Below, in pieces: positions 522 to 39,400 of a DNA stretch of 64,000 bases (the stretch's first letter is position 1; every line of letters begins with the position of its first letter). Location of the stretch: positions 5,001-69,000 of the forward strand of contig JAWQEG010004826.1 of NCBI GenBank assembly GCA_033782935.1, read 5' to 3'. This DNA comes from Petrolisthes cinctipes (Eukaryota > Arthropoda > Malacostraca > Decapoda > Porcellanidae). Position numbers and translations under genes: made by a program. A model generated the notes under the pieces. The model did not search any database. It was not told where the DNA came from and saw only the letters and a list, made by a program, of their open reading frames with translations.

Positions 522-551
522 ACCTTCCTCCACATCTGCTACTCCTTCCAG

Positions 552-722
552 ATCGTGGTGTCTCTGCTCAACAACCGACCGTCAGCCAACAGTTTCTTCA
601 GTTCATCGGTGCTTCAGGAGTTCACCAGGGCCACCAACGTCCGTCTCCGCCTCCTCAGGACCAAGACTCTCCTCGGTCACCTCATGTCTGTAGAGCGAAG
701 GGACCCCACAGTCACCAGAAGG
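552..722 (+). CDS. LanA: Laminin alpha exon 1 of window: LN domain C-terminal part
   Basis: Acceptor ..ccttccag at 551, 57 codons, phase 0 out. Contains the LN hallmark residues [26 protein letters not shown] and DPTVTRR. Earlier LN exons are outside the window. The true donor GTACGT at 723 is followed by four more tandem copies of the exon end plus donor. Confidence 0.94.
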
Positions 723-9700: not shown

Positions 9701-12700
9701 TACAGTTTCCTTAAGGTGGATAATTTCTCTTCATTCACATCACTAGTACTTGTGAAAACAGTACACAACTTATGGAGGAACACAACTATATACTGTATAG
9801 GACTACACTTGTTATTTTTTCAGTTGATCCAGAATTATAGATGTAACACTTGCAACACTTACCTAGTACTGTACTGTTCACCAAGTGAGCTTGTCCCATT
9901 TAACTCACTGTGATCTTGCAGGCTACCCATGAAAAACATTAAAAACAAAATGACTTAAACATCATACTACATTGATTATATTTACAAAGAATATAGCCAG
10001 AGAGATCAAAGTGAGTGAGATTGGACAATGTCACTTACTTCACAGTTTTGTGTTGGTGCCACACCTGCCATGCTGGATTATCTGGTGAAAATACACAGTA
10101 GTGTGAGTTTACTACAATATATTGTAAATGAATACAAGTTTCCATAATGCAGTAAAACATGTGAAGGAGAATTGTATTTTAGTGAAGGCTTGTAGTACTG
10201 TACCTTCTTAGATATAACTTGGAGTGTAAATTTGTCAACAGAAAATGAAGTGTACGTGAAGGTGTCTAGCACCAGGGAGAAAGGTTAGCTTTATTGGCTT
10301 GTGCTTGCTGAATGGTGCCTGTCTTTCTTCAGGGGTATTTATATCTACAGTAGTGAACAAAATTGAACAAGCTTTGTGAAAAAATGTGAGCAAGTTATAG
10401 GACAGTACTGTACTTCAAACAGTACAGTACTGTACTGTAAAACAAAGCCAAAGTCATAAGTATGTAATCCAGTTGTAGTGCTTTTCCATTGTGTGTTTAT
10501 TCATTGTAGCAAACCACAGGATCAAAATGAGAATTAAATACAACCATTAACTGCCACCTGGAGTTACAGTATATACAGTATCTTAAACTCACATTTATAC
10601 AACCCAAGCTTGTTCAGGTGTATCTTGGGTTCAAATAAGAACTAATATTGTCTTTATAATAACATGATATAGTTGGTAGTACTCTTTGTATCCTATTGAT
10701 ATTGGATTTAATTCATTAGTAGTTTAACATCAGTTGGTAATATAACCGGTATTCAGATGGTATTGTGTGTTGATTGGATTTGTTCATATTCATTTGCTTT
10801 TGTTAAGCCTATTTAATTACCTGTCATATACCCGGTACTTTAATTTTCATAATTATCATCATAATCATCATCACTCTTTGTCCAGGAATATGACTCATAG
10901 ATAAACAAACCCCTTTGATTACAATGGCACATCATAATATTATATATCCTGTCCTTTCACTTCAGTCTTTGATAACTGTATAGGTGTTTGAATCCCGAAT
11001 AATGAACTTCAGTTTTCAAACAACTGCATTTATATTGAAGAATCTTGTTTCATTTCATACTAAGGAGGAATCAGAAGTCAGTTCAGTAGTTTACAGTTTA
11101 TCAACAATGTCTGATACCTGTGAAGTCCTTTGGTAATCTTGTTGGGGTTGGTACATTTGTTGACCATAGAATCCTGCCCCCCTTAGTTAAAGCCTGATAT
11201 CTGGAGCAGGCGGTTTCTTGATGACAGCCCACACAAAGCCTCCCTAGGTTAGAGATGTGTGTGTGTGTGGCCTCGTAATGGTTTGAGTGGGCTGTCGTCC
11301 AGAAATTGCCTGCTTCAGATCTTGGGTTTTGACTCAGGGTGGCTAGATTCTGTGGTCAGTGAGTGTACCTTTGACTATTGACATTATCTCTTTCTTAAAT
11401 GTATAATATTTGTGTAGTCGTAGCTTTGTTTAAACCTTGTGTTGTGTCATGATTTGTTTATTGTAGTAACAGTATATAGTATCTTATACTGTATAATAGA
11501 ATTTATACATTTTCTGATAAGATTATAGTACCAATTACTGTACAGTACTGTACTCTGTATGGCCTGACATTTGTTTTTTGCAATTTTGTATTGTAATGTA
11601 CGTACATCCTGTAGTAGATAGTTTGTAGTTTTGTTGTAATATATAGTTAGTTATATATGTATAATGTATATATTGATATACAGTACTTTGCTTTGTGTTC
11701 ATAAAAGTTAACCCCTTCACTGGGCTTCAGTATTAAGTACAATTTAAAAAGTTATTGATAATTGTGGAACATATCCTGTTTACCCCAAGCAAAATAATCT
11801 TATTTGTTTTCTCTGACCAACAGAGTTTGATGTGAATGTATTGATCCAGAATGGTCAATTCTATGAGGCAAGTTTACCTGTCCAACATTGTCCCAGCGTG
11901 TCAGGTTGTCGTGCACTCCTCCAACAAGACGATGGACAGTTTGTGTTTGACATTCAGGAAAACTTTGTCCTCTCTCTTAAGGTGGGTTTTGTGTGATAGC
12001 ACTAAAGGAAAAGTTGTTCTCTCGTTTAAGATACATTTTGTGTTTGACAGTCTGAAAAACTTTGTTCTCTCACTTAAGATTGCTTTTTATTTAGAATTCA
12101 GGTAATCTTTGTTCTCTCACTGAAGTTAGTTGTTGGTGTTTGTGTACAATATATTGTTATTAGTCAGTTTCTAATTTTTGGTTAACAGTGACAGTAGGAA
12201 AAGCTATACTTGTTCATAGACTGACAAGGATAAAATGAGTAAACTATGCTTGTTTTATTTGTGAATAGACTGACGAAGACAAATTGTCTTTGTTCATAGA
12301 ATGATGAGAGAAAGAGAAATATATCATATTCCAATATTTACCACAGGAGCCAAACCATAAGAGCCTGTGGGTGGACTATGTGTTAGTGGTGCCAGCTGTT
12401 CACTACACCACTGAGGTCCTACATGAACTTCCTCTGGATCGCACTGCTCGCTTCATTAGTCTCTGTGGCCAAGACAACTTCAATCTTAACGTCAGTGACA
12501 CAGGTTAGATCTTGTAAAACTTTTCTGGTCCAGTCTTGTACTATTACTCAGTGTAGGTCTATTTCACAGTAAATAATGTCCCTTAGTCTACCCTTGCCTT
12601 GCATTCTATTTACTGTACTGTACTTTATCTGTACTTGAAGCCCCTCACTCCATAGAAGAAGAAGAAGTACAATGTATATTTTACTGATAATGTTGTGTTG

Positions 12701-15700
12701 TGTTGTGTTGTCCATGTAGGGTTCTGTCGTGATGCAGCGTTTGAGGTGACAACAGATCATAATGGTGGAGCAGTACCATGCCAGTGTGACTACTATGGCT
12801 CAAACAGCTTTGAATGTGCTCCCTTTGGTGGCCAGTGTCCCTGCCGTCCCAACATCATCGGCCGCAGGTGTAACCGTTGTAAGACTGGCTACTATGGCTT
12901 CCCTGAGTGTCGACCCTGTTCCTGCCCCTCCACCGCTCTCTGTGATCCTGCCACTGGTATGTCATTTATATAGCATACGGCCAGGTGCAGGAAATGTAAT
13001 GGATTAAGGGGAGATTCTCTTGTTGATAAATTGGAAGGCTCTTGATTTCTCCTCCTAACTATACCAGAAAAACAGACGCCCTCAATAATATTAATAGGGG
13101 ATCTCTTTTGTGGCATAGTTTGGGTTTTTTCATGGCATTGTTTGGGGGAATCATAGACCTTCCAATTTACCAACCAGAAAATCTCTCCTTAAGCAATGTC
13201 AATAACTAACTAAATAGCTCCACAATAACTCAACCCTATGCTTATGTTACCAGAATGTGGTTTTTAGTTTGGCCCGTGCTTTTCCCCCAGGCGAGTGCAT
13301 CTGTCCGCCACAGGTTGAGGGGAACAGATGTGACAGATGTGCTCCCTACACCTATGGCTATGACCCCATTATTGGCTGTGAGGAATGCCAGTGTTCACGG
13401 CTTGGTGTACGTGCAGGCAACCTCCAGTGTGACCTACAGACCGGACAGTGTGATTGTAAGAACTCAGTGGTTGGGCGCAGGTAAGACAATTTTCCCTTCT
13501 CACTTTATCCTTTTTTATTTATGGTCTGATTTAGCATTTAGACTCCATTTAAAAACTCAGTGGTGGGATGCAGGTGAGGCAATCTTCTCTTCTCACTTTA
13601 TCCTTTTTATTTATACTTTTATAGTCTGTTTTTGTGGACAAGGAGGTAAACAACAGGTGGGAGGTAAACAACAGGTGGGAGGTAAACAACAGGTGGGAGG
13701 TAAACAACAGGTGGGAGGTAAACAACAGGTGGGAGGTAAACACAGGTGGGAGGTAAACAACAGGTGGGAGGTAAACAACAGGTGGGAGGTAAACAACAGG
13801 TGGGAGGTAAACAACAGGTGGGAGGTAAACAACAGGTGGGAGGTAAACACAGGCAAAAACTTGAGCTCAGTGTTTCTCTTTGGGTTTGAATTAAGTACAA
13901 TCCATATGATTTTCCTTTGTAGTATAAATTGTTCTAATGCCAGTTAAAGTACATAATCTAACATGAAAGTAATTGTTTATAGAATAAGTGAAATTAATTT
14001 TATTGATTGTCAGCAGCTATTCCCCTCTGAAATTCATCCACACTTTGGTTTAACTACTTTGTAACATTTCACTACAATTTTCTGTTATAGTATTCAGTTA
14101 CAATACTCAGTTGAGGTGAATTTTTGTTTGAGTGTAGCTTTAAGGACCCTGTGATCGTGTATGAAAATTGGAGGCTTCTGATTCCTCCTGACCATGCCAC
14201 GAAATGAGCTCCTTCCTTATACTGTAGGTGGTGTTTCATGATAATATATGAAGGACTCATTTAACTCCAATTTTCTGACTACAACATAGGATCCCTTAAA
14301 GAAAGTAATGTGTTGTGGACAAACTGAAGTGTAGTTATTAGTTAAACCCTCCAAACTCAGCTCTGAATCACATCTTTTAGTCTCGTGTGGAGGGATTGTG
14401 TTTCCTGGCATAGTTTGGAGGAATCAGTAGCCCCCATTTTCGTATGGTGGATTACAGACTGACCTTAATGTATTCCTTTGCTGTTATTCCACAAGGTGTG
14501 AGCGTTGTGCTGCAGGTTACTGGTCCTTCCCCTTCTGTCAGCTGTGTAACTGTGATGTGAGAGGGACTGAGGCTGACATTTGTAGTCAGGTCAGTACATT
14601 ACCATTCAGTCAAGTTTGTGTAGTGTCTTATTAAGTACTAAGTCACTAAGGTGTTACTGGCAAATTGGAAGAGGCTAAAACCAATTAACTTTGCCTAGAA
14701 ATTTGGTTACGTTGATAAAGGGAATTTGTTATGTGTACGGTTTGAAATTGTCATACAGGTGTACCTCCAATTTACCAGTAATAATTATCCCTTTGGCACT
14801 TTCAGGTTCTTAGACGTAATATATTAATGATGTCTGTTGTGTTCTGTACTTCAGCATACAGTAGTTCAGCCAGCTAGGGCTTCATATTTGCTTAAGCTAT
14901 ACTGTTCTAAAAATGTTGTAGAAACTCTGTACTGTATTTAATCCACTATCTGCCTCATAATTATTGCATATATTTTCCACAGGAGGACGCCAGCTGCTTC
15001 TGCAAACTCAACGTACAAGGCCGGTCATGTGACTCTTGTCGGACGGGAGCATACAACCTGGAGGAGAGTAATCCCGACGGTTGTACCAAGTGTTTCTGTT
15101 TCGGCAAGTCAGAGTATTGCTCCTCAGCCGATGTATACTGGAAAGTGCGTGAGGTGTGTATGTAGGTACAGTTGTAGTATACTGGTGTGTGTGTGTGTGT
15201 CAGGGTTTGCAGTTTAGTCTTTTCACTGTGGCTGACTTTATAAAGGTTTTGTATGTTTTGTTTTTAGCAGTATGAAGTAAATGAAGTACTGTACTGCATT
15301 TTCTTTATTACAAAACTCTGAATACAGCACTTGGAGCAATTACTGCAAGTCACAGATTCAGAGAGTGACCAGTAATTTGTGAGCGAGTTGAATTGACTGT
15401 TGGTTAAAAAGTAAGTTTGTCTTTCGTGGTATTCAGCTCATTATGATGCAGATCGTGATCACTTAACCAAGTACAGTACTGTACACTCTGAAACAATTAC
15501 AGTATTATGCTCATTTGTACATAAAATTAACTAACCCTACTCTTGTCATTCTTCAGTAAGTTGCATACTATTTTATATAATCATGGTATGTATTATTCAC
15601 ATATTTTTACACAGTTTAATGAGTAGAGACTTTGGTTTGACTCCAGGTGGACGACATGTCAACGTGGAGTGTTGTGGTGATAATTGAAGTGGAGCAGCAG

Positions 15701-18700
15701 CAACAGTTGGGTTACTCAGAGCCAACCCTCACCCTCTCCTCACTGACTCAGGCCCCAGAGTATTACCAGAACCTCATACAGCAAGACCTTGATGGCTCGG
15801 AGGATTTCCACCCCGAGGGACAGGTGTTCTTTGCCGCTCCCTCGTCCTACATCGGGAATCACGTCACTTCCTACGGGGGATACTTGACCTATTCCCTCGT
15901 CTTTGTGAGGGGCGATGGTGGTCAGTTTACTTCACTAGTTATCTATGGAAACCACTTTCATACTTTCAATGTACTATAGTGATTGATTCTATTTCTTTTC
16001 ATATTCAACAAGTGTAAAATCTTATTAACTAATCCCCACACTTCTGGATACACAGCAACAAGCATGTCGAGTTCACAGTAGCTAATAAACACATACTTCT
16101 ATTTTTTTCTTTTTTAAGGTTCTGAGGTGTCTGGTCCGGATGTAGTGTTGTCTGGAGGTAACATCATCGCTCAGTACTTCTCATCCTTCAGGCCAGACTC
16201 ACCAGAAGTGTTCAACAACGAAGTCAGACTCACAGAACACAACTTTAGAACTCTGTCAGGTGAGTATATCATCTTGGTTCAATATAAAGTGTTTTTTGTC
16301 ATTATATATCCTATGAAGTGTTGTAGCTCATTGTTGTTGTTGTTCCTCAAGCTGTCTGGCCAAGCAGCCCCATGTAGCTCATTGTGAAGTGTTGTAGTTC
16401 ATTTCAAAGTGTTACATACAATACAGTACTGTACTTGTGAAGTGTTCTAACCCTTTGTGAGGAATCAGTGGCCTCCAATTCAGCAGCAAAATTAATGAAC
16501 TCCACAAAGGGAAGTTTATTTGCTTCTGATTCTTTATTCACATTTCACTTGTTACATTTTTCCTGCCAGAACTGTGATGATATTTGTGACTTACTCTTCT
16601 TCATCAGAGTTGCCACTTGAGCGTGACCAGTTCATGATGCTGCTGTACCACCTTGATGGTATTTTCATCAGGGCAAACTACTGGAGTAATTCTGTTGAGG
16701 CCAGGTAAGATGGAAAGTTTGTCCATAATGTGAAAGGTGAGAACTAAAGTAAAAAATCCCATTAAATGTCCTCACCTGTAAAATGAAGAAAGATTGAGAG
16801 TGGTGTAAAATCATGTCATGTTATATTATAAGACATAAGAATTAATGTGTTTATTAAGGGAATAATACAGTGGAGGTAAATCTGGAGCAACTGATTTCTC
16901 CAAACTATTCCAGGCAACAGGCCACCATTACTTTTGTTAACCTGGTCCTGTTTCCTGGCATGCTTTGGAGGAATCAAGGTGCTCCAATGTATCAAAAGTA
17001 TAGTACTGTACTGTATCTCCTTACTGCCATTACAGATTGTTCAACGTGAGTATTGACATGCCTTCATCTGACTGGCCAACACCAAACTCAATACCTGCCT
17101 TGTCTGTTGAACTCTGTCAGTGTCCTATTAACTATCAAGGTAAGGAAGACTGAATGTTAACTATTATGGTAATAAAAACTGACTATTAACTATCAAGGAA
17201 AGGAAAACTGACTATTAACTATTATGGTAAGGAAAACTGACTATTAACTATCAAGGTAAGGAAGACTGACTGTTAACTATTATGGTAATACAAACTGACT
17301 ATTAACTATCAAGGAAAGGAAAACTGACTAGTAACTATTATGGTAAGGAAAACTGACTATTAACTATCAAGGAAAGGAAAACTAACTAGTAACTATTATG
17401 GTAAGGAAAACTGACTGTTAAATATTATGGTAAGAAGGATATGAAAGGATATAAAAGCTGACAAGTTCTACACATCTGTTGATAGTCAAACAAAATTAAT
17501 GATGTTTATGCTGCCCCCTACTGTATAAAAGCTGATGATTTCTGCACATACTGGACCCAATAATGACATCCCTTCCCTTACTAATACCACAGGGTCATCG
17601 TGTGAGAGCTGTGCCAAGGGGTATTACAGAGCACAGAGAGGTCCCTACGGTGGCTATTGCATTGCCTGTCAGTGTAACGGCCACTCAGACACCTGCGACC
17701 CTGACACTGGCATATGTTTGGTGAGTTGACCCTGTGATTAATATGATGGAGGGAGTGTTCAGTAAACCCTTTGCTATTCATCAGTTCAATAATGTTCATA
17801 GATTTTGTTCGGGAGACCATTCTCAGTATTTTGTTTATTTGCTGAATTGAATGGGAAAGATACCTGTACTGTATTAATGTACAATAGAAATAGACACTAA
17901 TACTGCATATAATACATTTTTACAGATGTAGGAATTATTAAGACAGTACAATATTGATATAAAAATTGATTATATAAGGTTTTGACATGGTGTTTCATTG
18001 TTAATATGTGTCCCTATCTCTGTGTGTCAGAACTGTCAACACAACACAGTGGGTGATCATTGTGAGATGTGTGGTGCCGGATATCATGGTGATGCCACAC
18101 AAGGAACAATATATGACTGTCTGATCTGTGCTTGTCCTCTCCCATCCATCACCAACAAGTAAGTTCATTACCATACATACATGTACACTTCTCACACTTG
18201 CTTTGGAGGACCATCGGTTGTGGGTGAAATGGAGGCTCACAGATTACCGAGCTAATCCCTTTCCTCTCTTCAAATGTCCCTTCTTTCCTTCATTTTTCCT
18301 TTGTCCCTCCTCTCTGTCTCCTTCTCCTGTGGTATAACAAAATTTTGGCCTAACTCAGCCTTCTTTCCTTCCCTTTTCAATCAATGTCTCTGTCTTGTAC
18401 AACAGTTTTGCCGAGAGCTGTGACTTTTTGGATGGTGGCCTCTCAATAAGATGTGACTGTCGGGGTGGCTACACTGGTGAGAGGTGTGAGCGTTGTGCAT
18501 CAGGATATTATGGCCAGCCAGAAGTTTTAGGTAAGGAAACAATTAATGAAAGGCTTATACTGTAATACTTTTGAAGCAATGCAGAAAATTAAACTTTGTT
18601 GAGTTATATATTTTGCATAACCAAAGTTGACCAACATTTTATTTTGTATGCAAGATATAAAATTACCTACCATTTCTGACTTTTGTCCTCATGTAGACTA

Positions 18701-19868
18701 AATAGAGTCAATGCTTCGGGCCTTAGATCATACAAAGGTTTTTCTGTATAAGGAGTTGCCCTTGATATGTTGCCTTAAATAATGATAATGATAACAATGA
18801 TTATTTGTGACTGTATTTTAGAAATGATTAAGCGTATGTATCATTGTCCATCCCTTGTCTCAGGTGACGAGTGCCTTCCATGTGAGTGTAACAACAACAT
18901 CAACCCTTGGGAACAATACAGTTGTGATGACATTACTGGCCGCTGCCTTGACTGTCTCAACAACACGTTTGGTAACTCGTGTGAACGCTGTGCACCGGGA
19001 TACTACGGAGACGCCATTATGCTCAAGAACTGCGAGAGTGAGTCATTAATATTATGTTCTTAAGGAAGTTATAATATATGATTGTGTTGGTATAATGGAG
19101 ACTGATATATCTTGTGAATTATGCTACAGAACTGGGAGAGTGAGTCAATTATATTATGTTCTTAAGGGAATTATAATATATGATTGTGTTGATATAATGG
19201 AGACTGATATATCTTGTGAACTATGCTATAGAAACAACCTATACAGGATATATATATTGAAGGAGTCTACTGTATGGTTTGGTTTGAATGAATGAGATGG
19301 ATTGAGGATGAAAGAAGACCGACCTCAGCCTTGAAGAATGTGTATGTACTCACTCACTCACTCACCCACCCACCCACCCACCCACTCACTCGCTCACCTA
19401 CTCACCTACCCACCCACTCACTCACCCACCCACCCACCCACCCACCCACTCACTCACTCACTCACTCACTCACTCACTCACTCACTCACTCACTCACTCA
19501 CTCTCCAACTCACTCACTCACTCACACCCCCCAACTCACTCACACACCCACCAACTCACTCACTCACCCACCAACTCACTCACTCACACATACACTCCCA
19601 CTCACTCTCCTACTCACTCACTCACTCACTCACTGAGAAGGAGGAAGGAGGAAGAGGAGGAAGGAGAAAGAGGAGGAAGGAGAAAGAGGAGGAAGGAGAA
19701 AGAGGAGAAAGGAGAAAGAGGAGGAAGGAGAAAGAGGAGGAAAGAGGAAGAGGAGGAAGGAGGAAGAGGAGGAAGGAGAAAGAGGAGGAAGAGGAGGAAG
19801 GAGGAAGAGGAGGAAGGAGGAAGAGGAGGAAGGAGAAAGAGGAGGAAGGAGGAGGAGGAAGAGGAGGA

Positions 19869-19901
<33 letters not shown>

Positions 19902-20059: not shown

Positions 20060-20090
<31 letters not shown>

Positions 20091-21404: not shown

Positions 21405-22165
21405 ATTTACTCTATTCATATTATTACCTCCCACTTACTTACTTACTTACATACTTACTGTACCTCTAGTGTTTTCTTTTATCACTTTATTTACTTTTAT
21501 TTGTAATACTGGACCACATCTCATATTTTGAATGTATAATATGTGTTCATACTTCACTTCTCCAATTCTCTTTTTTTTTTTTAATCTGTTACCTTTTGTG
21601 CTTACTGTCCCATTTCTCAATCATCTTTTTCCTCTGGTGCCATATGACTTTGCTGTTGTGGCGCCTAATATCATTCAATCAATCAATCCATGCAACATTT
21701 TATTCCATCTTTTCAAGGAATTTTGGCTACTGAGTCACAGATAGAAAATTAGATCAGAATAAAGGATGAAAGAACAGAATTACAGGTACTCCATTATCTT
21801 AGAACACTTTCCTCTACACATTGATCCAATGATTTATTCATATCACAACTTCAATCATTTTATTTATAATTTAAAACTTCATTCACTTTAATGTTTAATT
21901 TATAAATCCAACATGTAATTATTATTTATTTTACTGTATGATGTATTTTACAAGTGAAATAACAAAATAGATTCATGTATGTCTATCCCGTAAAAGTAAA
22001 TAAACAAGTTAAGAATAGCAGTCATAAATTAAGATTAGGAACTAAGGCGAGGCTGGCTGTGTGGGTGGCTGTGTGACTGTGTGTGTGTGTGTGTGTGGCT
22101 GGGTGACTGTGTGTGTGTGTGTGGGTGGCTGGGTGACTGTGGGTGACTGTGTGGGTGGCTGGGTG

Positions 22166-22204
<39 letters not shown>

Positions 22205-25200
22205 CTGACTACCTGTCTGGCTCACTGTGTTGCCAAGCTTAGTATGTGAACAGCAGCAGCAGGAAAAGGGTGGCATGTTGACTTCTTACAGTGTGTTGTT
22301 GTGGCTTCTCATTGAGGCAGTCTCTTGTCAACATCATGATGCTGCAACAACCACAACCCAGTATAGAGCTTCCAATACTCAACAACGTTCTGGATCTGGT
22401 GGATCTGTTTGGTCTAGGCCTGATGCAGTAAACTATGCTCAGCCATATACCCATCTCTCATACCCCAGTCAACAGTACCGTCCAGGGTATGATGTTTGCT
22501 GTGTAGTTTACACCCAGTCCCGTACTCCTCAATCCTCCTCCAGTACACAACATCGGTCTATGTATGATACATCTCTGTGGTCTCGAGCACAGTCACACAC
22601 TCCTCCATCAAGATATGATGTCTATAGGCCCCTTGATACCTACAGGAGGCAGTATGGACCCGTTGCCAACCGGACAAGGGAAAGCCATGTTGGTGTGTAT
22701 ACATCTTCAGGTTCACAGAGAACTCATTCTGGAGCTTCCACCGGGACTTCAGCCACTCGTGTTTATAGCACACCAAGGCGGCAACAACAGGTGCAGAGGC
22801 ATCATAGCCAACAGAACCTTGCATGGAGAGACAGACAAGAGATTTCACAGCGACAAAGAAATTATGGCCAGAATTTTTTGTCTGCATCGGTACACACAAC
22901 GACGGCACCACAACCAACTGAAGCCTCCGTCCGCCTCACCCATTACGACACTTTGCAGCAACGGATTGCCATTAATGGTGGAGGGAGAAGGAGAGAAGGT
23001 GTAGGAAATCAAGGAGAAAGAGGAGGGAGGGGACAACACATCAGGCCTACCAGTACCAGCTCTGTGACCCAAGGGAGAGGGAGAGGGAGAGGGGAAGGAA
23101 GGGCTGGGTCTCAAGTGTCAGGGGAGGGTTATGGTGAGGCATATCTCAGGAGGTCTGAGTTTGGCAAAGGTGAGCTCCAGTTTTATACAGGCATTTCTTT
23201 CTTATTATCTTGGTTAACAATATTTAGTTTGCAATTCTGATTATGGAGTTCATACCAGCAAATTTAATTCCTTCCTATCCTTCTCCTGTAGCAAATCAAA
23301 AGCACTGAAGAGTACTTAATATTATCTCCTTTGTATTTAACCAAACAACAATGACTACTCTGTGTTATTGTTCACCTTCCAGGCTGTACATGTGATGAGT
23401 GTGGTACCCGTAACTGTCAACACTTCACTGGGGTGTGTGAATGTTTTGACAACGTGGTGGGTGAACATTGCCATCGCTGTGCACGAGACCACTGGGGATT
23501 TGCTTCTTGTCAGGTTAGTATGGGGGGCAACATTACCTACTGTACCACTCACTCACTTCACTTCACTTCACTTCACTTCACTTCACTTCACTTCACTTCA
23601 CTTCACTTCACTTCACTCACTCACTTCACTTCACTTCACTTCACTTCACTTCACTCACTCACTCACTCACTCACTCACTCACTCACTCACTCACTCACTC
23701 ACTCACTCACTCACTCACTCACTTCACTCGCTCGCTCGCTCACTCACTCACTCACTCACTCACTGGGCCATATGCAAGAACATTGTGGTGTTGACGATGA
23801 CATGACACCAGTACGATGGATGTGTTGTTTATCTATGGATTCAGTACAGTACCACACCTTCGTAAATACCACGAGTGTTCTTGAATACAATATTGCCCAT
23901 TTATTTACCTTCTCATCACCACATATGACTGACTGACTGACTGATGCAATCGCTGAGTCACTTGGTAGACTATTCATTACAGAATAATAACTTTCAGAAT
24001 AATAACCTTTCTTTTTATATATCCTGTGTAAGAATTCCTTTGGCCAACTGTACATTCCAAACCCATACATCTGGTGAATACTGAGTTTTTTTCCTCTGTT
24101 ACACCTGCAACATTACCGACCTCATATAAGTGCATTAATGATATAAATAAAATTAATACAGTATGATGAATAGTAAGTGGGTAATTCACTTTTGTTACAT
24201 TGGAGTGCCATGATTCCTTCAAAGTATGCCAGGAAACAGGACCAAATGAACAAAAATAATGGTGTTTGTTCTGTTGCTTGGAATAGTTTGGAGGAATCAG
24301 TTGCTCCAGATTTACCAACACTGCACTACCACATTAACCGCTGTGAATTGGTTACCAGGGATGCCAACCATGTCAGTGTGGCTTTGCATCGGTGAGCAGC
24401 CAGTGTGATGAAGAGACGGGTCAGTGTCAATGCCAACCTGGTGTGATGGGACAACGATGTGACCAATGTCTACCCAGCTACTGGAACTACACACAATATG
24501 GATGTCAGGGTAAACAGAAAAAACATATAGATTAATGTACAGTTCGTAAAAAAGTATTGGAATTCCTGTATGGATAATCATAGTTAATTTCAATGTAAGG
24601 GAGGTTCCAATACTTTTTTTGCCGACTGTCATTCACCTTTAGTTTTAATTAATCTGTACAGTATTCTAATTTAAGGGGAGATTCTCATGTTGGTGAATTA
24701 TAGTGCTACTGATTCCTCCAAACTATGCCAGGAAACAGCAGATCCCTTATTAGTAACAAAGAAGGGATTTGTTTCCTGGTATACTTTGGAGGAATCCCAG
24801 ACTTTCCAATTCACCAATATGAGAATCTCCCCATAAAGTGTTATAAAATTTTCTCCAGTATGCTCTAAGCTCAAACACACTTCTTCTTGTACATTGTTAT
24901 ATTGGTACAGTAGACCTTGATATAATGTTAATACATACTTATATTCACCACATTATTTTACACTCGGTACCTCATTGAACACCACCAAATGTTTTCCCAG
25001 GCTTGTGTTATTTATTACCATACAAGTTATGTTCTACTGGGTGTCTAACATTATTAAATTATGACATATTATCAAGACCGTACTGTATTTCTACCTGTAT
25101 TATGAAAACAAACACTTCTTCTTGTACTTACTAACTTATATTATCATCCTGACAGAGTGTTCGTGTCGTGAAGGGTTCAGTGTTGGTGTTGGATGTGACC

Positions 25201-28200
25201 CACTGACTGGACAGTGTCGATGCCTTCCCGGAGTCATTGGTGCAAACTGTGATCGATGTCCTTACAGGTCAGTCTCAAGCAACGATGGAAAATGTAACCT
25301 CATCAGCCATTCTTATTATTGTACAGCCGGCAACAGAAATTCGTATCCATCTCATGTACTTCATAATGCTAATATGACCTGATAAAGTTACATTCTGAAC
25401 CAGTTTCTGTTCTAACGGTGTATGTAATTTATCATATGAGAAGTATATCTGTCATCTCAGTATTCAAATTGTGTTACAACATCACTATAGCTTATACATA
25501 CAAAGGTGGAATTTTATCACCACTTTTCATTTTACTGTACATCATTTGTTTTCATATTCTTGGTTATGAGGTTAGATATATTTAATGACCTTCCACCAAC
25601 TGTGTCTATCTATCAAGTGTTTCCTCCTCTTCAACTCCCACCTAGAACAGCCCTTGTCCTCCTTCACACTTGTCCTCCAGGTCTTCCTTGATCCACCTCT
25701 GACACTCCACTTGTCTCACTTTCGTCTCTTTACAAGGACGAAAAATATTTGTCCCCTGAAACCTAATTTGACTCCACACGCCTTTACATGACCTGCTCTG
25801 TCCCTCCTCCACTCAATCTAACCCAACCTGACCTTGTTACCTTTACATGACCTACTCCGTCCCTTTACTCAGTCTAACCCAACCTGACATGACTTCACAC
25901 TTCCTTTTCACCTTTACATGACCTACTCCATCCCTCCTAAACTCGGTCTAACCCAACCTGACCTAACTCCACACTTCCTTGTCACCTTTGCATGACCTAC
26001 TCCATCCCTCCTCCACTCACTAACCCAACCCAACCTGACCTGACCCAAGACAAAAAATCTCTTTCTCCAGGTGGGTGTTGCTTGATGGTCGTGGCTGCCG
26101 TGAGTGTGACGACTGTGTTCACGCTTTACTCGACACAACAGATGAACTCTCCATGCTCATCCTACCAACCATTGAAGAGTTTGAGGTAATGAAAACATCT
26201 CACTTGTAACCTTTTGATGAGTGAAAAGTTTGAGGTACCGGTAATGAAAACATCTCACTTGTAACCTTTTGACGAGTGAAAAGTTTGAGGTACCGGTAAT
26301 GAAAACATCTCGCTTGTAACCTTTTGATGAGTGGAAAGTTTGAGGTACGGTAATGAAAACATCTCACTTGTAACCTTTTGATGAGTGGAAAGTTGAGAAG
26401 ATTGTTTCATGTGATCATGTTTCCAGAATAGTGTTGCATATTTCTAATAACGTTTATTTATAATCTGCTAATTGTATAGTTTGCCTACTGTACTAAGGTA
26501 AATTATGTTTATACAGTGTGCCTACAATATAATATGGTACAATCATATATTTAACATGCCTCATATAACACAGGCCCAGTCATAATAAGAGAAGTGTGGG
26601 AAAGTATTTGGTTGGTCTTCAATGAGGAACTTGGTGTAAAAATGGAATAATGTATACAAGTTTGTTTCTCTGGTGGTGTTATTAAAGGGGAGATTATTAT
26701 GTTTGTAAAGTGGAAGGCTACTGATTCCTCCTAACTATACCAGGAAACAGATATCTCATAAAAGTAACATTAGGGTGATCTGTTTCCTGGCATAGTTTGG
26801 AGGAATCACAGACCTTCCAATTCACCAACAAGAGAATCTCCCCTTATTGGTCTTTTGTAATGAGTTTGTAATGGTTTGTGTGTGTTTGTGTATATCAGTC
26901 AGCAGCATTTGGGTTCTTCCTTCACCAACGTCTGGGTGTGATCAACTCGACCGTGGCTGACCTCCGCCCTCGAATCAGGAACATGGACTTCTCCCAGACT
27001 GAGGACCTTCCCTTGGACAATGAACTGGAGAAACTGGCTACTGATGCTCAGGTTCTGTTGACGGAGGTAAGTTCTGTTGACTGAGGAGGTGGTGAATGAA
27101 GATAGGTACCAACTGTATGCCTAAACCTGACCAAAATACAGTATAGATTTGTGTATCGATCTACTGTATATCTCTGACTCCTCACTATCTTTCTGTATCT
27201 GTCATTACTGGAACTTACTGTATCTACTTTTCTGTATCTATCATTAGTAACAATCTGTAACTTACTGTACCTACCTTTCTGTATCTATCATTAGTAAACG
27301 CCCTGAAAAATATTGTATCGACCAACATCAAACTTTTGTTGTACTGTATAGTTGTTGACCCAGAGTGGAAGAATCAAAAGCCTCTAATTCCCTGATGGAT
27401 GATGATGATGTTGGCAGTGATTTGTGAGATTAGTTCTTCCTCCAAACTGTACCACAAAGCAGCACCTATAAATATACTGAAGAAGTTAGTTAGGTTTCTG
27501 ACATAGTGTGGATGAACCAGTAACCTCCTCCAGTTCCTAAAAGAGGGAGTAACCTGATGGGGACAAATTAATTGGAGCACATGTAGCCCTCCAAACTCTG
27601 ACATAAAACACATCTCTGTAGTCTCATAGGGAGGGATTGTGTTTCCTGGCATAGTTTGGAGGAATCAGAACCTCCTAATTTTCTGACAACACGTTACTAC
27701 TCCCTTTAATAAGTTTACAACCCCAATAACAATTCATCAACCCCAGACTGGGATAGTGGGCGACCACGCTGATGAGGCGGCCAACGAAGGCCTCAAGGTA
27801 CACGTGGAGGCCCTCAGGGTACAGGAGGATGTGGATGCGGCCTTCCAGCGGGCACGCCAGATCACCGATGAGATCAACAAGCTTGTCATAGGCCTGGAGA
27901 CTGGCTCAGGTAAAGATAATTATACTCTTTATGGACGGAAGGGACTGTGTTTATTATTGGCCTGAATACTGGTACTGTACTGGGGAGAGAATATTATGTT
28001 GATTAGTGAACTCCCATTGACACAGAAGCTGGCAATTTTTAGAAGAGGAAAACTGTGCTTAAAAATTATAAGTCTGGTCAGTGGCAATGTTGGATAAGGG
28101 AGGAATGTGATTAATAAATGCCCATCTCACAGCCTTAATATTTGTAGCCTTCTTTTATTATCATCTACAACACTATTCCAAGTTGTTGTACAGTTGGCCT

Positions 28201-28589
28201 CGTGAATTCGTATACACCTCTGTGACATCAAGGGCTTGTAACAACTAGAAATATGTAGTTAAATAAATTCCTAACACCAAACTTATCTAGTAGTGTCATT
28301 AGATTAATACTTGAATCAGTCAGCAGAACAATTATTATGAGTAGAATAAAGACCCCATATAACCAATGCTCTGTGTATAAATTCCTGAGGCCGACTGTAT
28401 ATCCTTGCCAGGTGCACAGTTAGAACAGGCCATCAATGAGGCTGAGGACGTGGTGGAGGAGATGGAACGCAGGAACTTCAACCCTGACGAGGACATGGCC
28501 GAGGTGGAACTTGAAGTCTCCAAGGAAATGCTGGAGAATCTCAACATGTTATACTTTCCCATTAATGTGAGACTGTCTATTTGATTACT

Positions 28590-28620
<31 letters not shown>

Positions 28621-31600
28621 TTGTAATGGTATTATTTTTGTTATTACAGTATTATTATTGTTACCCGTATTATTATTATAGTATTGTTATTATTATTGTT
28701 ATAATTATTAATATCATTTTTACTGTTATTGTTATTATTATTATATATTATTATTACAATATTATTATTATATTTTGCTTCATTCAACACCACACAGACC
28801 CAACAGAATGCCACGATGGAATACGAGAATCAGCTCAAGAAGTTTGCTGACAAGATTGATGAAATGAAAGAGTTCATAGAGAACGGTCAAGAGCAGACCA
28901 GGGAGGCCCAGGAGATGATACGCAACAGTGAACTCTATGGGTAATATCTCTATCTTCATATTCTTCATTCTCCTCTTCATCTTCTTTCTCATCTTTGTTA
29001 TTGTTGGTATTACTTTGCATTTATCCCTCTCTTCCTATTCTTCTGATTCCCTGTGTCTGTTTAGTCTTCTTTCCGTTCATATACAACTGGAATCATATAC
29101 ATTATCACAGATTTAACAACTTATTTCCACTTGTAAAATGTTCATATACTTTATGTACAGTCGGCAAAAAAAGTTTCGTTACCATCCCTAAAACAGTGTG
29201 ATGTAATGCTGGTACGCCTGACTGGTGAGTGTCGTACCTCCGCCACCCTCCGGCCTTCATAAGTTCGTGCCCCTGGCCAATGCCCCTCAGTGTGTCATGT
29301 GCAGCCAAGTAGGAATGACGTTCTTTCAGCCAGTGCTATTTTTTCTGGGTATTTCACGGTTATTCTTGTTCTAAAATACTCAAACGCATTTCCTTATGTT
29401 TAATAATGAATAGTTAAATAGTAAGAGTTCTTCAACACTCAAAATTTAATTTAAAATCAGCTAAACTGCCGGGGCATTGACGATTCCCGTCCAGCATGTC
29501 CTGGATGACACGAGTCACAGCTGCATGTCGGCGGAGTACTAACCCTACCGGGCTTACCCATGTTAAAATTAACGTAGGGGGTGGTAACGAAACTTTTTTT
29601 GCCGACTGTACACTCGCTGAACATAAAATCTAGCCCACCTGAGTTGAAGCCCGAGATCTGAAGCAGGCAGTTTCTGGACGACAGCCCACCCAAAGCCTCC
29701 ATTGGTTCAAGATGTGTGTGTGTATGTGTGGCCTTATGATGGTTTGAGATGTGTGTGTGTATGTGTGGCCTTGTGATGGTTTGAGATGTGTGTGTGTATG
29801 TGTGGCCTTGTGATGGTTTGAGATGTGTGTGTGTATGTGTGGCCTTGTGATGGTTCAAGATGTGTGTGTGTGTGTGGCCTTGTGATGGTTTGAGATGTGT
29901 GTGTGTATGTGTGGCCTTGTGATGGTTCAAGATGTGTGTGTATGTGTGGCCTTGTGATGGTTTGAGATGTGTGTGTGTATGTGTGGCCTTGTGATGGTTT
30001 GAGATGTGTGTGTGTATGTGTGGCCTTATGATGGTTTGAGATGTGTGTGTGTATGTGTGGTCTTATGATGGTTTGAGATGTGTGTGTGTGTGTGTATGTG
30101 TGGCCTTATGATGGTTTGAGATGTGTGTGTGTGTGTGTATGGCCTTGTGATGGTTTGAGATGTGTGTGTGTGTGTGTGTATGTGTGGCCTTGTGATGGTT
30201 TGAGATGTGTGTGTGTGTGTGTGTATGGCCTTGTGATGGTTTGGGTGGGCTGTCGTCCAGAAACCACCTGCTTGAGATCTCGGGCTTCGACTCAGGTGGG
30301 CTAGATTTTTTGGTCAGTGGGTGTACTTATCATAAGGAATTCAAAGTTGCCTTAGAAGTAAATTGATATTGCCGTATGAAAGACATAAAAGCCAGCCAGT
30401 AGCTTGAAGAATATTTATGTACTGATAATTATTGTACAGTCGGCAAAATATTATTGGAACCATCCTTACATTGAAATTAAATGTAAGTATCCATAGAGGA
30501 GTTCCAATACTTTTTTTGCCAACTGTACATGCAACTTGTAGGCCCAGGTAAATTATCCAAATACCAATACTTAAGGGGATATTCTTTGGTTGGTGAATTG
30601 AAAGGTCTTTGATTCCTCCAAACTATGACACAAAACACATCCCCGGTTTGTACCATTGAGGGAGTCCATTTTCTGGCATGGTTAAGAGGAATCAGTGAGA
30701 CCTACCAACTTACCCATTAAAGAACACTGCTTCATTATATTGACATTACATAATATATATTCTAATACTGTTATCTTCCTCTGTTTGGCAGGTACGAGCC
30801 ACTGAAGAAGAAGTTGGAACGGATCAATGTGTTGTCAGATGAGGTGGAGGATGACCTACAGGAGGCTCAATATATGAAACAACAAGCCCGAGAGAGCTAC
30901 AGAAATTCCTCGGCCAACTTTGATATGCTGTGTGAGTAGTGTTCTGACTTTATACTTAGTAGCATTAAGGGGAGATTCTATTTGTTGGTGAATTGGAAGG
31001 TCTCTGATTCCTCCAAACTATGCCATGAAGCAGATCGATCCCTATTAGTACCATTGAAGGAGTCTGTTTTCTGATATAGTTAGGAGGAATCAGTAGCCTT
31101 CCTATTTACCAACATGAGAATCTCCCCTTAAGTTTAATTAATATCTCCGGGTGATTTAATTCAGTTGAGGAAAAATCCCAACATTCAAAAGTTTGTTGTG
31201 AGCTGAAAATGTTGTTGACTTGAAGGGTGAGTGGATGTGAGTGTGACCCATTGTACTGTCTCATCCTTCTGTATTCTGCTTTCATTATTCCAGACCGAGT
31301 GTTAGAAAATAAAAGTGAAATGAGTTATTGATCATAATAATGAATTAATCTTTTTCCGAGCAGTGACATCTTTTGACGTACATTATGACTAACTCTAGGT
31401 ATTTTTTTTATTTATTAAAGAGAAGCTGCCTTGAATCTACAGGTTAACCAATAAAATGTTTCCTTTCAGTGGTGGAAATGGTACGTCTGCAGGATGAAAG
31501 AGCAGCACTGAATGAGACGGTGGAAACTACAAAGGAAAAACTGCAGCAAGTCTTGGAGCCGGCACAACAAGCACAGGACCATGCTTACCAACTTGGCCAA

Positions 31601-33291
31601 AGGGTTTGTATTTCATTATTTTATTTATTATTTTATTTATTATTTTATGAGAAAGTTTTTTTTGCGTCAGTATTTGCGACCTGTCCAGCCAAATACAGAA
31701 TTGTATATCCATGTATGTTGTTTGGTATTATTTATATCAACTTGTATTTTGGTCATACTTTCTGCTGTACATTAGCACTTTATTATTAGAGTTTGATATT
31801 TCATACAACTTTTATCTTTTCTTCTGTTTCTCTCAGTTCCTCTCAGATCACCTCTGTTTGCCAGGAATTTTAACTGACACACCCTTTAAGGGGAGATTCT
31901 CTTGTTGGCAAATTGGAAGGCTACTGATTCCTCCTAACTATGCCATAAAACAGACTCCCTCAACGATACTAACCGTGGATTTGTTTCTTGGCACAGTTTG
32001 GAGGAATCTGAGACCTTCCAATTCACCAACACAAAAAGTTCCCCTTTAATTAAAATGAATGTGTAATAATCCAAATCAATCAAGCAAGGAAGAATCAAAT
32101 CAACCAAGTCAGTCAGACCCAGAAATTGATCCATTTAAATTCTAGTCGTACCCACGGGGAATCGAACCCCGGACCAGAGAAATCTCAGGCAGTGCTTCTA
32201 CCGGGTAAGCCATAAGAGTACTCCGCTGACGTAGCTTTCAAATTCTGCCTTTAACTCTCAGGTCCGGCTATTACAAATGTGTGCCACCTCATGATTGTAT
32301 TGGTAACTGTTTCCCCATCACCAGGCAATACAACTGGACAGCCTACTAGCAGACACAAGGGAGGTGGCTGGGAATGCACTCAAAGCTGCCAACGCCTACT
32401 TGGATATCGTCAATGCCATCGATGATGCGTATAATGCTTCACTCTCGGCTAGTATGTCGGCAGGACAGGTACGATTTGTCAACACTTCTATCTAGTTTTA
32501 TATCAATCTTTGTGTGTCTATGTATATTGATCTTTTTTTTTCCTATCTATGTATGTGATTTGTATATTTGTGTTTATCCATCTGTATGTGTGTCTGTATA
32601 TTTATCTGTCTATCCATCTGTGTGTATGTATTCTGTATATTTATCTGTTTATCCATATGTGTGTATGTATTCTGTATATTTATGTGTTTATCCATCTGTG
32701 TGTATATGTATTCTGTATATTTATCTAATTATCCATCTGTATGTGTGTGTATATTTATCTATTTATCCATCTGTATGTGTGTGTATATTTATCTATTTAT
32801 CCATCTGTATGTGTGTATATTTATCTATTTATCCATCTGTATGTGTGTATATTTATCTATTTATCCATCTGTATGTGTGTATATTTATCTATTTATCCAT
32901 CTGTATGTGTGTGTATATTTATGAGTCTGTCCATATATCCGTCACTTCTACAGGCAGTTGGTATGTCTGAGGGTGTGAGTGAAAAGGCAGGCCAGTCCCA
33001 GGAAGTGTCAGAGGAAAAGCACCAAGCAGCGGAGGTCAAAGTACAGCAAGTAGAGGATGACCTACAACCACAACTTGACCTGGCCAAGGATAACGTCAAC
33101 ACACTGAGGGACATGAACCGTTACATCAGCGATACACTCACCGTCATTGACAGGTGTGTGTGTGTATGTGTGTGTGTGTGTAGTAAGAATAGTGATTGTA
33201 TAAATGCAGAGGGGAGTGTACCTGTGTGTGTGTGTTTGTCTGTGTGTGTGTGTAGTAAGAATAGTGGTTGTATAAATGTGGAGGGGAGTGT

Positions 33292-33329
<38 letters not shown>

Positions 33330-33372
33330 TAAGAATAGTGATTGTATAAATGTGGAGGGGAGTGTACCTGTG

Positions 33373-33415
<43 letters not shown>

Positions 33416-36400
33416 ATAGTAAGAATAGTGATTGTATAAATTTGGAGGGGAGTGTGTGTGTAGTAAGAATAGTGAGTGTATGAATGTGGAGGAGAGTGTA
33501 CTGTACCTCTGTGTGTGTGTGTAGTGAGAATAGTGAGTGTATGAATGTGGAGGAGAGTGTACCTGTGTATGTATGCAACTGTGGGTAATTGTTACTGAAT
33601 GGGATGGGGGTTTATAGTGATGTCTGTCAGTTGAAGACTATCGATTCACCCAAACTAACGGTACACAAAATTTAACAACTTAACCACAGAGAGAAAAAAA
33701 AAAAACATTGTCCCTCAAAGCATTCACTCCCACTCAAAACAACGACTTTTCATCCTTTTTTTTTACAGTGGACTGAACGACCTGGAGCAGCAGAGGTTTT
33801 CCGAGGAGGCGCAGCGACTGACCAACGACGCCGTGAGTTCTCAGAGGGAGGCTGATGAGGCCATTGGTAAGGTCAATACAGTGCAGGAGCAATTGCCTGT
33901 AAGTGCCAACGAAGCCAGAGAAGTGTTGAAGAATGTAGCTGACGGAAACAGAGATATTAACCGAGCCAGGGAACAGGGTGAGTACAGACCAGGGAGTGGG
34001 TTGGAGGAGTAGATATGAGTGGGTTGGAGGAGTATATATGTGTGGGTTGGAGGAGTAGACAAGACCAGGGAGTGGGTTGGAGGAGTAGACAAGACCAGGG
34101 AGTGGGTTGGGGGAGTAGACAAGACCAGGGAGTAGATTGGAGGAGTAGATATGAGTGGGTTGGAGGAGTAGACAAGACCAGGGAGTGGGTTGGGGGAGTA
34201 GACAAGACCAGGGAGTGGGTTGGAGGAGTATATATGAGTGGGTTGTGGGAGTAGACAAGACCAGGGAGTGGGTTGGGGGAGTATACAGGACCAGGGAGTG
34301 GGTTGCGGGAGTAGACAGGGGTTAATTGGGGAATGGGTGGGTTGGAGGAGTGGGCAAAAGTTGGTTGGTAAGTGGGCTGAGGGAGTGGATGAGAGTTAGT
34401 TGGTGAGTGAGTGAGTGAGTGAGTGAGTGAGTGGGCATCACAGTTGTTGATGTAAAGTTTCATTCCCAGGTGAGGTACAGTAACTTTCTCATAGTTTTTA
34501 ATACGGCATTATGGTATGTGATTGTTGAGTCAAAATAGATACTGTATTATATTATTAATTTATATATTTAGTTAGTAATATACAGTATAAATAATTATTT
34601 ATTTATAATATTGAAAGTAAAGGAAGATAATTGCATATAGTACCACATTTGTGTACTGTATTATAATATTATTTATTATATTTTACAGTGTTGAAAGTGG
34701 AACAGGACATTCCCAGAATCCTGCAGGATGCGTCTGAGCTCCACCAACAGAAGGAGCAACTACAGGAGCGTGGCCTTGACCTGAGGGAGAGACTGGACCA
34801 ACTGAGACGTACCATCCAGAACACACGGCAACTGGCTAACAAGATCAAGGTTGGCGTGGCATTCCAACCAAGTACCTCACTGGAACTCAAGAACCCAGAA
34901 GACCTCACCAAGGCATCCACATCCACCAAGGTTAGTTTAAGGGAAATGGATAAACTGGATGTAAGTATGTGTGTGTGTATGTATGTGTGTATCCAGATGA
35001 GGTGGTACAGTAAGCCAAAAGGATAGAGAGGAACTGAATTTATCTGTGTTTGTGCTTAGTGTTATATTGTAGTAATTACTGTACTTCAATTGGACTTGGT
35101 AATCCAGAAGGCAGGTGGATTTATCTGTGTTTGTGTTATATGTTTTATTAATTAACTAATCCAAGTAAACAATGAAAGTCGCTAGTCCAATGGGAGTTTT
35201 GTATGCGGTACTTCATAACAAATGAAGAAGTCCGAGAAGTGTTATTGACCTTCAGATGATGGGAGATTACTGATGTCGTTGTGAATGGTGTTGACATATT
35301 ACAAGTGTGTTGTCTGAAGCTTGAGTTGTTGTATAAGGTTTATTGAAATAGTTTTTTAACCTTTGATTATTAGGAGGGCTTCATGGTTCCCCCCCAAAAA
35401 TATCAGTAGGTCATCAGAGAAACTGGGTAAGTTGTTAAAGAGGTTAAGAATTTATTAATGTATGTGTGACTTTTTCTCTTTTTCTGTATTTAGTGGTTGA
35501 ATTGGGTTAAATATATCCTACGTGCAAATAAATTAGTTGACTGTTGTTTGTGGTGTTGCAGGTGTCACTGTTCACCCGGACCCAGGAGCCTAATGGTTTG
35601 TTGATGTTCCTGGGTACACCAACGGGAGGAAGTCAACAGATGCGTCACACCACCAGCGATGACTTCATGGCCCTGGAGCTGGACGGGGGATATGTACGAC
35701 TCACCATGAACCTTGGAGCAGGACCTCATTCAGTAGAGTACAACAGACTCTTTGTGGCCGATGGAGAATGGACCAAGATCACAGTCGAGAGGTGACAACA
35801 CTCTGCTCTGACTTTATGGAGTGATGAATATTATGGATTTATGGACTGATGGATATTAATTGATAGATTTATTAATTTATGAATTGTAACTGTGAGTGAT
35901 GATGCATTCACTACTAAATTCTGGACACATACAGGACGGGGAAGGTGGTGCTGCTGCTGGTGGAACGAGAGGGTATGGAAACAGAACCCATTGAGAAGGT
36001 CCTGCCTGGCCGTTACTCTGTCTTCAACCTCCATCCCACCGTCACCAAGATCTTCGCCGGGGGTATACCTCCTGGGGTGGAAGTGGACAATGCCGTGCGC
36101 AGTACTTCCTTCATCGGTGACATGGAGGATCTGCGCATCAATGACCGGCCCATCGGACTCTGGAATTTCATGCAGGACGGAACTAACAACAATAGACAAC
36201 AGGGGGCCATGGCAAGGTGAGTCATTGATCTATGTTGTAACTAGATAAGATGTTAATGATATCTAACTAGACTACATGTATTTTTGGTAAAGTTATACTG
36301 ACTCGTTCATATGAGTTCTTGGCTTATATGATTAATGTACAGTAATGCAATCCAAGGCTTTACACAACTTACACAATTAGTTATCTCTGTGCAACTTATA

Positions 36401-39400
36401 AACCCTAGAATATATCCAAAACCTGTATCTAAGATCATTTCACTTGGAAGGGAATTGAGTGTATCTTTGCCAGGATTTAAAAGACTGAACTATACTGTAC
36501 TATACCTAACCTAACCTTTACATGTGGTTAAGGGGAGATTCTCTTGTTGGTGAATTGGAAGGTTTCTGATATCCCCCCAAACTATGCCACTAAAAAGATC
36601 CCTGATGAATACCATTGAGGGTGTCTGTTTTCTGACATAGTTTGGGGGAAATCAGAGACCTTCCCATCTGCCAACGAAAGAATCTCCCCTTAATTGATAA
36701 TGGTAACCTAACCTAACCTAACCTAACCTAACCTAACCTAACCTAACCTGACAGGGACAAGCTGGTTGACCTAGCACCAGTAACAGGTCTGAGGTTCAGC
36801 GGTGATGGTTACGCTGCCATGAACACAAGTGGTGGTTATCGACTCACTAACCAGTTCTACCTCCAGATGGACTTCAAGACCTACGCTGAGGACGGCATCT
36901 TGTTTATGGTTACCGGTGCACAGGTCAGGCAGCGAGGGTTGTTTTGTTATGCCACTGTTGACTTTGTGGTTAAGGGGGTGCCGGAATAAGGGGACAGACT
37001 TGGGGGGGGGGGGGTTTAGGGGTGTGTGGGAATAAGGGGACAGACTTGGGGGGGGGGGGTTTAGGGGGGTGCGGGAATAAGGGAGAGGCTTGGGGGGGTT
37101 TTAGAGGGGTGCGGGAGTAGGGGACAGGCTTGGGGGGGTTTTAGGGGGGTGCGGGAGTAGGGGGACAGGCTTGGGGAGGGTTAGGGGGGTGTGGGAATAA
37201 GGGGACAGACTTGGGGGGGGGGGGGTTAGGGGTGTGTGGGAGTAGGGGACAGGCTTGAGGGGGGGGTTTGGGGGGTGCGGGAATAGGGGGACAGGCTTGA
37301 GAGGGGGTTAGGGGGGTGTGGGAATAGGGGGACAGGCTTGGGGGGGTTTTAGGGGGGTGCAGGAGTAGGGGGACAGGTTTGGGGGGGTTTTAGGGGGGTG
37401 CGGGAGTAGGGGGACAGGCTTGGGGGGGGGGGGTTAGAGGGGTGTGGGAATAGGGGACAGGCTTTCTACCCACCCCAAGCCTGTCCCCCTATTCCTGCAC
37501 CCCCCCAAACCCCCCCCCCCTCAAGCCTGTCCCCCTATTCCCACACCCCCCAAACCTGTCCCCCTATTCCCACACCCCCCCAAACCCCCCCCTCAAGCCT
37601 GTCCCCCTATTCCCACACACCCCAAACCCCCCCTCAAGCCTGTCCCCCTATTCCCACACCCAACTAAAACCCCCCCAAGCCTGTCCCCCTATTCCCACAC
37701 CCCCCAAACCCCCCCTCAAGCCTGTCCCCCTATTCCCACACCCCCCCAAACCCCCCCTCAAGCCTGTCCCCTAACCTCTCACCCCTTTAAATGAAGTGAT
37801 GGATGCAAATATTTACTAAGGGGATATTCTATTGTTGTTGACTTTGAAGGCTAATGATTCCTCCTAACTAGCCTTACACTGGAATACAGATGCCCTCATT
37901 GGTACTAAGAGGGAATCTATTTCATGGCATAGATTAATTGAAGGAATCAGACTTTCCAATTCACAAACAAAAGAATCTTTCCTTAATGTTATAATTATGA
38001 AGATTCTCTTTGATGGGTTTTCATATGTGTTATTTTAAATTGTTAACTTATCAAATGAATACTGGAAGAACTCTTTAACTTCATATATATGACATGCTTC
38101 TCCAGTGTGAAAATTGATCAAGTGTCATAATCAGCAACTACTGTATTGTATATGGATTGAATATTGATTAATAAGTTTGTTGGTATAGTCAGCATCTTAC
38201 TAAACACATATAACTCCCAACTGAACCACATTTCTACAATTGTCATGTTTTTTCATCTGTTACCTTTTTTGCTTACTGTCTCACCTCTTAATCATCTTCT
38301 TTCTCGGGCGCATTATGACCTCGCTGTTGCAGTGCCTAATTTCAATGAATTAATGGACCAACAGAACCAGTACATGACATTGGCCGTGGAGAACGGTGGC
38401 ATTGTATTCCGATATGACTTGGGGTCTGGTGTTGCTGTGATGTATTCCAGACAGACTTATAATGATGGGGACTGGCATTCTGTGGAGGTTACCAGACATG
38501 AAAACCAAGGACTCCTCAAGGTTAGTTATTTTACTCATTATTGGAAGGTGTTAATACCGCCATGAAATATATACTGTACATCAATGTGTTTTAAATTTGT
38601 ACATGTATGTAGGTGTAAATATTAGGTATCCTGGATCTGGTATAGTACAGGCATGCAATCCATAATTTTAGCCTCTGATTTACATGGGAATATAATGACC
38701 AAGGAATTATATACAATTTCACCTCACACTCCGGTGTAAATTTGATCTAATCTGTTTTTGTGGTGCCCAGATTGGTTCGGAGGCAGTGCCAGGAGAATCT
38801 AGTGCTGACAACAAGGTGCTCTACTTGGTATCAGACACAATGTACTTTGGAGGCTATCCTGGTGAGCACGAGTTCCCAGACATGACCAACGAGGACTTCC
38901 ACGGCTGTATTGACAATGTTGTCGTCTCATCCATCTCTGTGGACCTCTCACTGAGCAAAGAGACCCAAGGCACTGTCCCTGGATGTCCTATAGAGGTATG
39001 GTTGGCCCCGGTGAAACTGATATTATTTACTTTAGTTAATGTTATGACCAAAGCTGTGTGTCATCATGGACTCAGAAGCCCATTAAGTGATGTTATGAGG
39101 AGGGAGCAATGGAAACAAATATTGGCAATAATGTTAAATTTCAACAACATTAGCATACAACATTTACAACTGAAAGAAATCCTGAATAACAATGGCATTT
39201 CTCTGTCCAAGGTTGCCAGCCTGGTATCGTTTGAGCCTCCCATCCCAGGGTACGTGAGACTCAGCAGCCCCCAGGGTAGTGGTCTGCAGCTGGTGTTCAA
39301 GTTCAAGACAGACCAGACTGATGGGTTGATCTTCTATGCATCAACACAGAGTCTCACCAGTTACCTTTCCCTATCTCTGGCTGACAGCGCTCTCATCCTC

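Follow-up and report, generated by a model that had tools for sequence, protein, structure and literature searches.

Laminin chains without an LN domain are, to our knowledge, known only from vertebrates (alpha3A, alpha4 and gamma2). LAMA4 is a separate gene whose product is always short, and alpha3A, which carries a head of about 30 residues, begins at the same upstream LE repeat as vertebrate alpha4. The available part of the source (PMC9788559) describes an N-terminally truncated alpha3A that is made from a second promoter of LAMA3, and states that trimers of alpha3A or alpha4, which have no alpha LN domain, do not polymerise independently under the three-arm hypothesis. No description of an arthropod short laminin alpha was recognised in the open-licence literature, as judged from titles and abstract openings among the matches listed. 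This analysis deals with a 298-codon frame in the porcelain crab Petrolisthes cinctipes, which fairly likely serves a laminin alpha gene as an alternative first exon. The predicted splice from 23169 to 23383 would yield a short, secreted alpha chain that lacks the LN arm.

The window, meaning the whole stretch of 64,000 nucleotides that was analyzed, contains the greater part of a laminin alpha gene, encoded on the plus strand (Table 1). Residues 204-3725 of the Homarus americanus laminin alpha (P0049) were found at 549-50715 in order, so that the LE, IV/L4, coiled-coil and LG regions are collinear with this reference, and Pfam EGF_laminin and Laminin_G domains were found on three sample ORFs of the window. 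The chain is represented in the window only from P0049 residue 204 onward, and P0049 residues 1-280 had no match in the preceding 5.1 kb of the contig (positions 1-5100). The beginning of the long chain may be on a different contig, missing from the assembly or too diverged. In a tree of 15 laminin alphas, in which the window is represented by an approximate protein, the window chain sits on a long branch and groups with two true crabs, Scylla and Eriocheir (98/98). P0049 residues 1905-1971 lie at 18839-19039, and at the canonical junction residue 1971, which ends at 19039, is followed directly by residue 1972, which starts at 23385.

Three other observations were made along the gene. Antisense ORFs of 191 and 170 codons on the minus strand (1487-2059 and 2350-2859) lie opposite LE exons and are perhaps by-products of Cys-rich codon composition. 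A repetitive stretch at 8064-8822 adjoins the exon at 7957-8112; several of its frames are open on both strands, and its translations carry the seven-residue repeats ILTLTTR and TNSYTDH. A 102-bp tandem duplication (19016-19233) starts within the end of the upstream LE exon, and a near copy of the last bases of that exon and its donor (AACTGGGAGAGTGAGT) occurs about 100 bp downstream, where it is a possible decoy donor.

Table 1. Features of the laminin alpha locus and of the predicted short-chain exon, in window positions.
Feature	Position	Strand	Remarks
Upstream exons of the full-length chain	549..18532	+	P0049 residues 204-1913; approximate; missing from the predicted short chain
Canonical upstream LE exon	18864..19037	+	Start read by eye; donor AACTGCGAGA followed by GTGAGT, phase 1
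In-frame stop TGA upstream of the ATG	22206..22208	+	Bounds the frame
Predicted alternative first coding exon	22275..23169	+	298 codons and one base; basic Q/S/R/T/G/Y-rich head
Signal-peptide-like N-terminus	22275..22331	+	19 residues, hydrophobic; cleavage site is an assumption; crude scorer 2.32
GA/GGA microsatellite-like part of the head	22974..23105	+	Encodes a GR/GE-rich stretch; blastn to array at 19.6-20.8 kb
Tail of the head	23127..23165	+	13 residues; 8/13 identical to P0004 GFGDAYLYQSEYG, before the same LE repeat
Donor GTGAGC	23170..23175	+	Phase 1; score 11.0
First shared LE exon (LE1)	23383..23513	+	Acceptor phase 1; P0049 residues 1972-2014
Second and third shared LE repeats, coiled-coil entry	24359..26185	+	Exons about 24359-24509, 25156-25267 and 26071-26185
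Coiled-coil exons common to both predicted chains	26893..34939	+	P0049 residues 2139-2709; approximate
LG-domain exons to the laminin alpha C-terminus	35559..50715	+	P0049 residues 2706-3725; approximate

The frame lies in the intron between the LE exon that ends at 19037 and the LE exon that starts at 23383. The sequence-only reading had reported a 298-codon open exon with an ATG, a strong phase-1 donor and a phase-1 LE acceptor, and these points were confirmed: 22275-23169 is open, with an in-frame TGA upstream at 22206, and the donor and acceptor score 11.0 and 8.7 with phases that agree. Because the donors at 19037 and 23169 are both phase 1, either can join 23383. The donor at 23169 (GTGAGC) is one of six sites, itself included, that score as high among the 2171 GT sites in 19037-50715. 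The same reading had called the N-terminus a textbook signal peptide. A signal-like start is present, and the AlphaFold2 model of the head places a helix at residues 4-17 within it, but its crude score is unremarkable. Since 14 of 101 ATG ORFs of at least 60 aa reach at least 2.0 on this scorer, the signal-like start by itself is weak evidence. Core-promoter consensus matches occur upstream (TATA at 21901; Inr at 21671, 21855 and 21879; DPE at 22020), each being a short consensus taken without a chance control. Nine ATGs lie in 21701-22274, the nearest of which (22244) is followed immediately by a stop.

The head would be basic: with cleavage after residue 19, the remaining 279 residues would carry a net charge of +20. 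AlphaFold2 applied to the head alone, without an alignment, returned a mean pLDDT of 46.8, and on this model the head is probably disordered. A head-only protein search, whose length limits left out full laminin chains, gave no matches at E<=1 among 1239 candidates; nothing was found in the PDB at E<=10 or in Pfam at E<=1. When the head was compared by BLASTP with 163 retrieved proteins, six matches appeared, all with E of at least 1.1, and the amphipod protein P0004 described below was one of them at 9.6.

The arrangement can be compared with several described laminins. Like alpha3A, the locus has a predicted internal start with its own signal peptide and a unique head, and this head is joined to LE repeats, a coiled coil and LG domains without the LN arm, so that the chain is predicted not to polymerise alone. 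The features of an alpha3A-type chain that were found are an intronic ATG frame, a signal-like start by the crude scorer and a donor matched in phase to an LE exon. Unlike alpha3A, the locus belongs to a different lineage, its transcript is a predicted one and its head has about 280 residues. The LAMA4 of Labrus mixtus (P0027) likewise has a signal-like start, a short head, LE repeats, a coiled coil and LG domains with no LN domain. However, the junction here is shared with neither: alpha4 keeps three LE repeats upstream of the equivalent of LE1 (read by eye in P0027), and the alpha3A junction also lies three LE repeats upstream. The frame also differs from the separate short gene LAMA4 in that it lies within an intron of a gene with long-chain exons. 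Thus, the earlier proposal of an alpha3A equivalent holds as an analogy, but the junction is three LE repeats downstream of the vertebrate alpha4 start. The short chain would work like alpha3A and alpha4 from another junction, and its origin would be independent. LaNt alpha31 of LAMA3 is a further non-canonical laminin alpha product that uses intronic coding sequence; as given in the available part of the source, it is made up of LN, LE repeats and a C-terminus derived from an intron, and so covers the opposite chain end from the short chain proposed here (PMC9788559).

A search with the predicted short chain gave 44 matches, among them a laminin alpha model of 1962 aa from the amphipod Trinorchestia longiramus (P0004). 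Like the locus in P. cinctipes, this laminin alpha has a non-LE segment at the same place with a similar 13-residue tail. The segment, of 173 residues, lies between LE repeats ending YYGDAIVRKDC and beginning CECNLCG, which are the same two that flank the P. cinctipes intron, and it ends GFGDAYLYQSEYG-I-A. Three of the five non-identical tail positions are conservative, and the match ends two residues before LE1 in the amphipod as here. The tail 13-mer had a local score of 49 against P0004, and the best score in the other 162 retrieved proteins was 31. The junction-anchored score of 46 was reached by 0 of 20000 shuffles of the last 14 head residues and by 2 of 45600 14-mer placements. The tail match is persuasive because of its position, the same in both before LE1; without that anchor it is weak, with a BLASTP E of 9.6 in the comparison with the 163 retrieved proteins. 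The head and the amphipod segment do not align beyond about 20 residues. An origin of the tail from the end of an LE repeat (YYGDA..) is a speculation, and it is likewise a guess that the tail caps the first LE repeat.

At the level of sequence, the similar amphipod segment, which occupies the corresponding place in its protein, supports the frame as a genuine coding exon that is spliced to 23383. Of the 12 named malacostracan proteins that cross the junction, 11 join the two LE repeats directly, with no head annotated. These 11 comprise ten other named malacostracans and Hyalella, taken from named entries up to P0104 among the best 120 of 646 matches. The protein entries are representatives of clusters at 90% identity, and annotated short isoforms may stand within the clusters or among the other 526 matches.

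The placement of this coding exon at the start of a transcript is the best reading for two reasons. First, the first exon is favoured because no acceptor scoring above 2 precedes the ATG, the region covered being 21901 to 22275. Secondly, it is favoured over a cassette exon because use of the acceptors at 22711 or 22753 would discard the signal sequence and the periodic 5' half of the frame. The sole relative found is, however, annotated as internal. Thus, of the alternative first exon proposed from the sequence, the coding exon joined to 23383 is borne out by the amphipod segment, while the annotation of that segment as internal counts against its position as a first exon.

If the frame belonged to a cassette exon, part of it (for example 22711-23169, 153 codons, phase 1 to 1) would be inserted in the full-length chain, where the product would be a disordered linker between two LE repeats. 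This is unlikely, and the case for it comes mostly from the amphipod. There the segment is internal and has no signal peptide, unlike the predicted head, and its 173 aa are near the 153 aa obtained from acceptor 22711. This comparison is with a protein model alone and says nothing of splice phase. According to the available part of the source, the T. longiramus gene set combines BRAKER predictions, with RNA-seq intron hints and Iso-seq-derived protein hints, and homology predictions, so RNA intron hints were used for it (PMC7062882). In addition, acceptor 22711 scores 6.0, within the 3.6-10.4 range of the 22 acceptors of the gene model. However, the cassette leaves the 5' half unexplained, with its ATG, signal sequence and three-base periodicity (p 1.7e-4). 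Nine acceptors scoring at least 4.7 lie in the frame, and two of them fit phase 1 (22711, and 22753 with a score of 4.7), which does not exceed the one in three that chance alone would give. A gene finder that has no start at this place will merge the region into internal exons; an ab initio model that divided the head region into four internal exons was discounted for this reason, the program being unable to start transcripts.

A chance open frame without a product, in a locally GC-richer and partly repetitive stretch of intron, is a good deal less credible than the coding exon and can be called quite improbable. Among 2000 dinucleotide shuffles of the frame, one had a fully open forward frame, and the median longest run was 90 codons. 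The composition by codon position is uneven (chi2 37.1, p 1.7e-6), and a periodicity as strong was seen in 0 of 118 control windows, which were overlapping, non-coding, of the same length and drawn from three long regions. The signal is weaker in the 3' half (p 0.028) than in the 5' half, and it survives removal of the GA-rich part (p 2.8e-6). The longest other ATG ORF has 131 codons versus 321 for the unspliced head frame, in a comparison of ORFs outside laminin exons, with 6-mer complexity of at least 0.75 and no overlap with the head. The tail that resembles the amphipod's, in the same position ahead of the same LE repeat, also argues against chance.

Several results point the other way. 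Synonymous codon usage of the frame, scored after training on laminin exons (three with stops dropped), does not resemble that of those exons; it scores -37.0 bits and is intron-like, which counts against coding; the other two forward frames score +20.4 and +13.5 bits. GC at codon positions 1, 2 and 3 is 0.52, 0.57 and 0.40, with position 3 near the window mean of 0.398. The negative codon score is taken to reflect an exon of weak codon bias whose third positions stay close to the genome background, yet it remains a genuine negative result. Another, overlapping frame in the head region stays open for 165 codons, and the unanchored amphipod match is non-significant. The head also contains a GA-rich, microsatellite-like part of about 130 nt. 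A GGA/GA microsatellite in the same intron (19646-20822) yields spurious ORFs of 537 codons on the plus strand and 450 codons on the minus strand, both longer than the head. The earlier claim that an open frame of this size is very unlikely by chance fits the shuffles but has to be qualified by these longer ORFs in nearby simple repeats. The possibility that the segment is a piece of an unrelated repeat had also been raised. The frame has one match in the 1.48 Gb assembly, and besides the GA-like stretch, blastn within the window gave three matches of 18-29 nt (E 0.12). Apart from the microsatellite-like part, a repeat origin of the head was rejected on these results.

A separate nested intronic gene, in which the unspliced frame would run on for a further 23 residues to the stop at 23238-23240 and encode a 321-aa secreted protein with a hydrophobic tail, is very improbable, given the rank of the donor among the six strongest GT sites, the lack of AATAAA or ATTAAA in 23170-23600, and the amphipod similarity, which stops two residues before LE1 and resumes in LE1, not in the unspliced tail.

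As an alternative first exon, the frame would require transcription to start within the intron, between 19037 and the ATG at 22275. The signal peptide would send the short chain to the ER, and the chain would consist of the head, three LE repeats, the coiled coil and the LG domains. Through its coiled coil it would be able to assemble with beta and gamma chains, and its LG domains would still bind cell receptors. By analogy with the vertebrate chains, a trimer without the LN domain would join the laminin network without cross-linking it and would dilute the cross-links, so that the ratio of short to long chains may tune the stiffness of the basement membrane. One guess is that the basic head binds acidic glycans or becomes cross-linked.

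The balance tips slightly towards an ancient intronic first exon in laminin alpha that is shared by malacostracans and predates the amphipod-decapod split. It would encode a short chain without LN whose disordered head evolves fast but keeps a conserved GxGxAYLxxSExG tail, and would be a second, independent origin of the alpha3A trick. Of the 12 named malacostracan chains examined among the best 120 of 646 matches, 11 carry no annotation of the proposed exon. If the reading is true, alternative first exons with unalignable, low-complexity heads can evade both protein search and annotation, and such hidden first exons could be found through a conserved tail on the splice side. A crustacean lineage would then have reached an LN-less laminin independently, with a different head and a different junction, and would offer a natural replicate in which to study the purpose of LN-less laminins.
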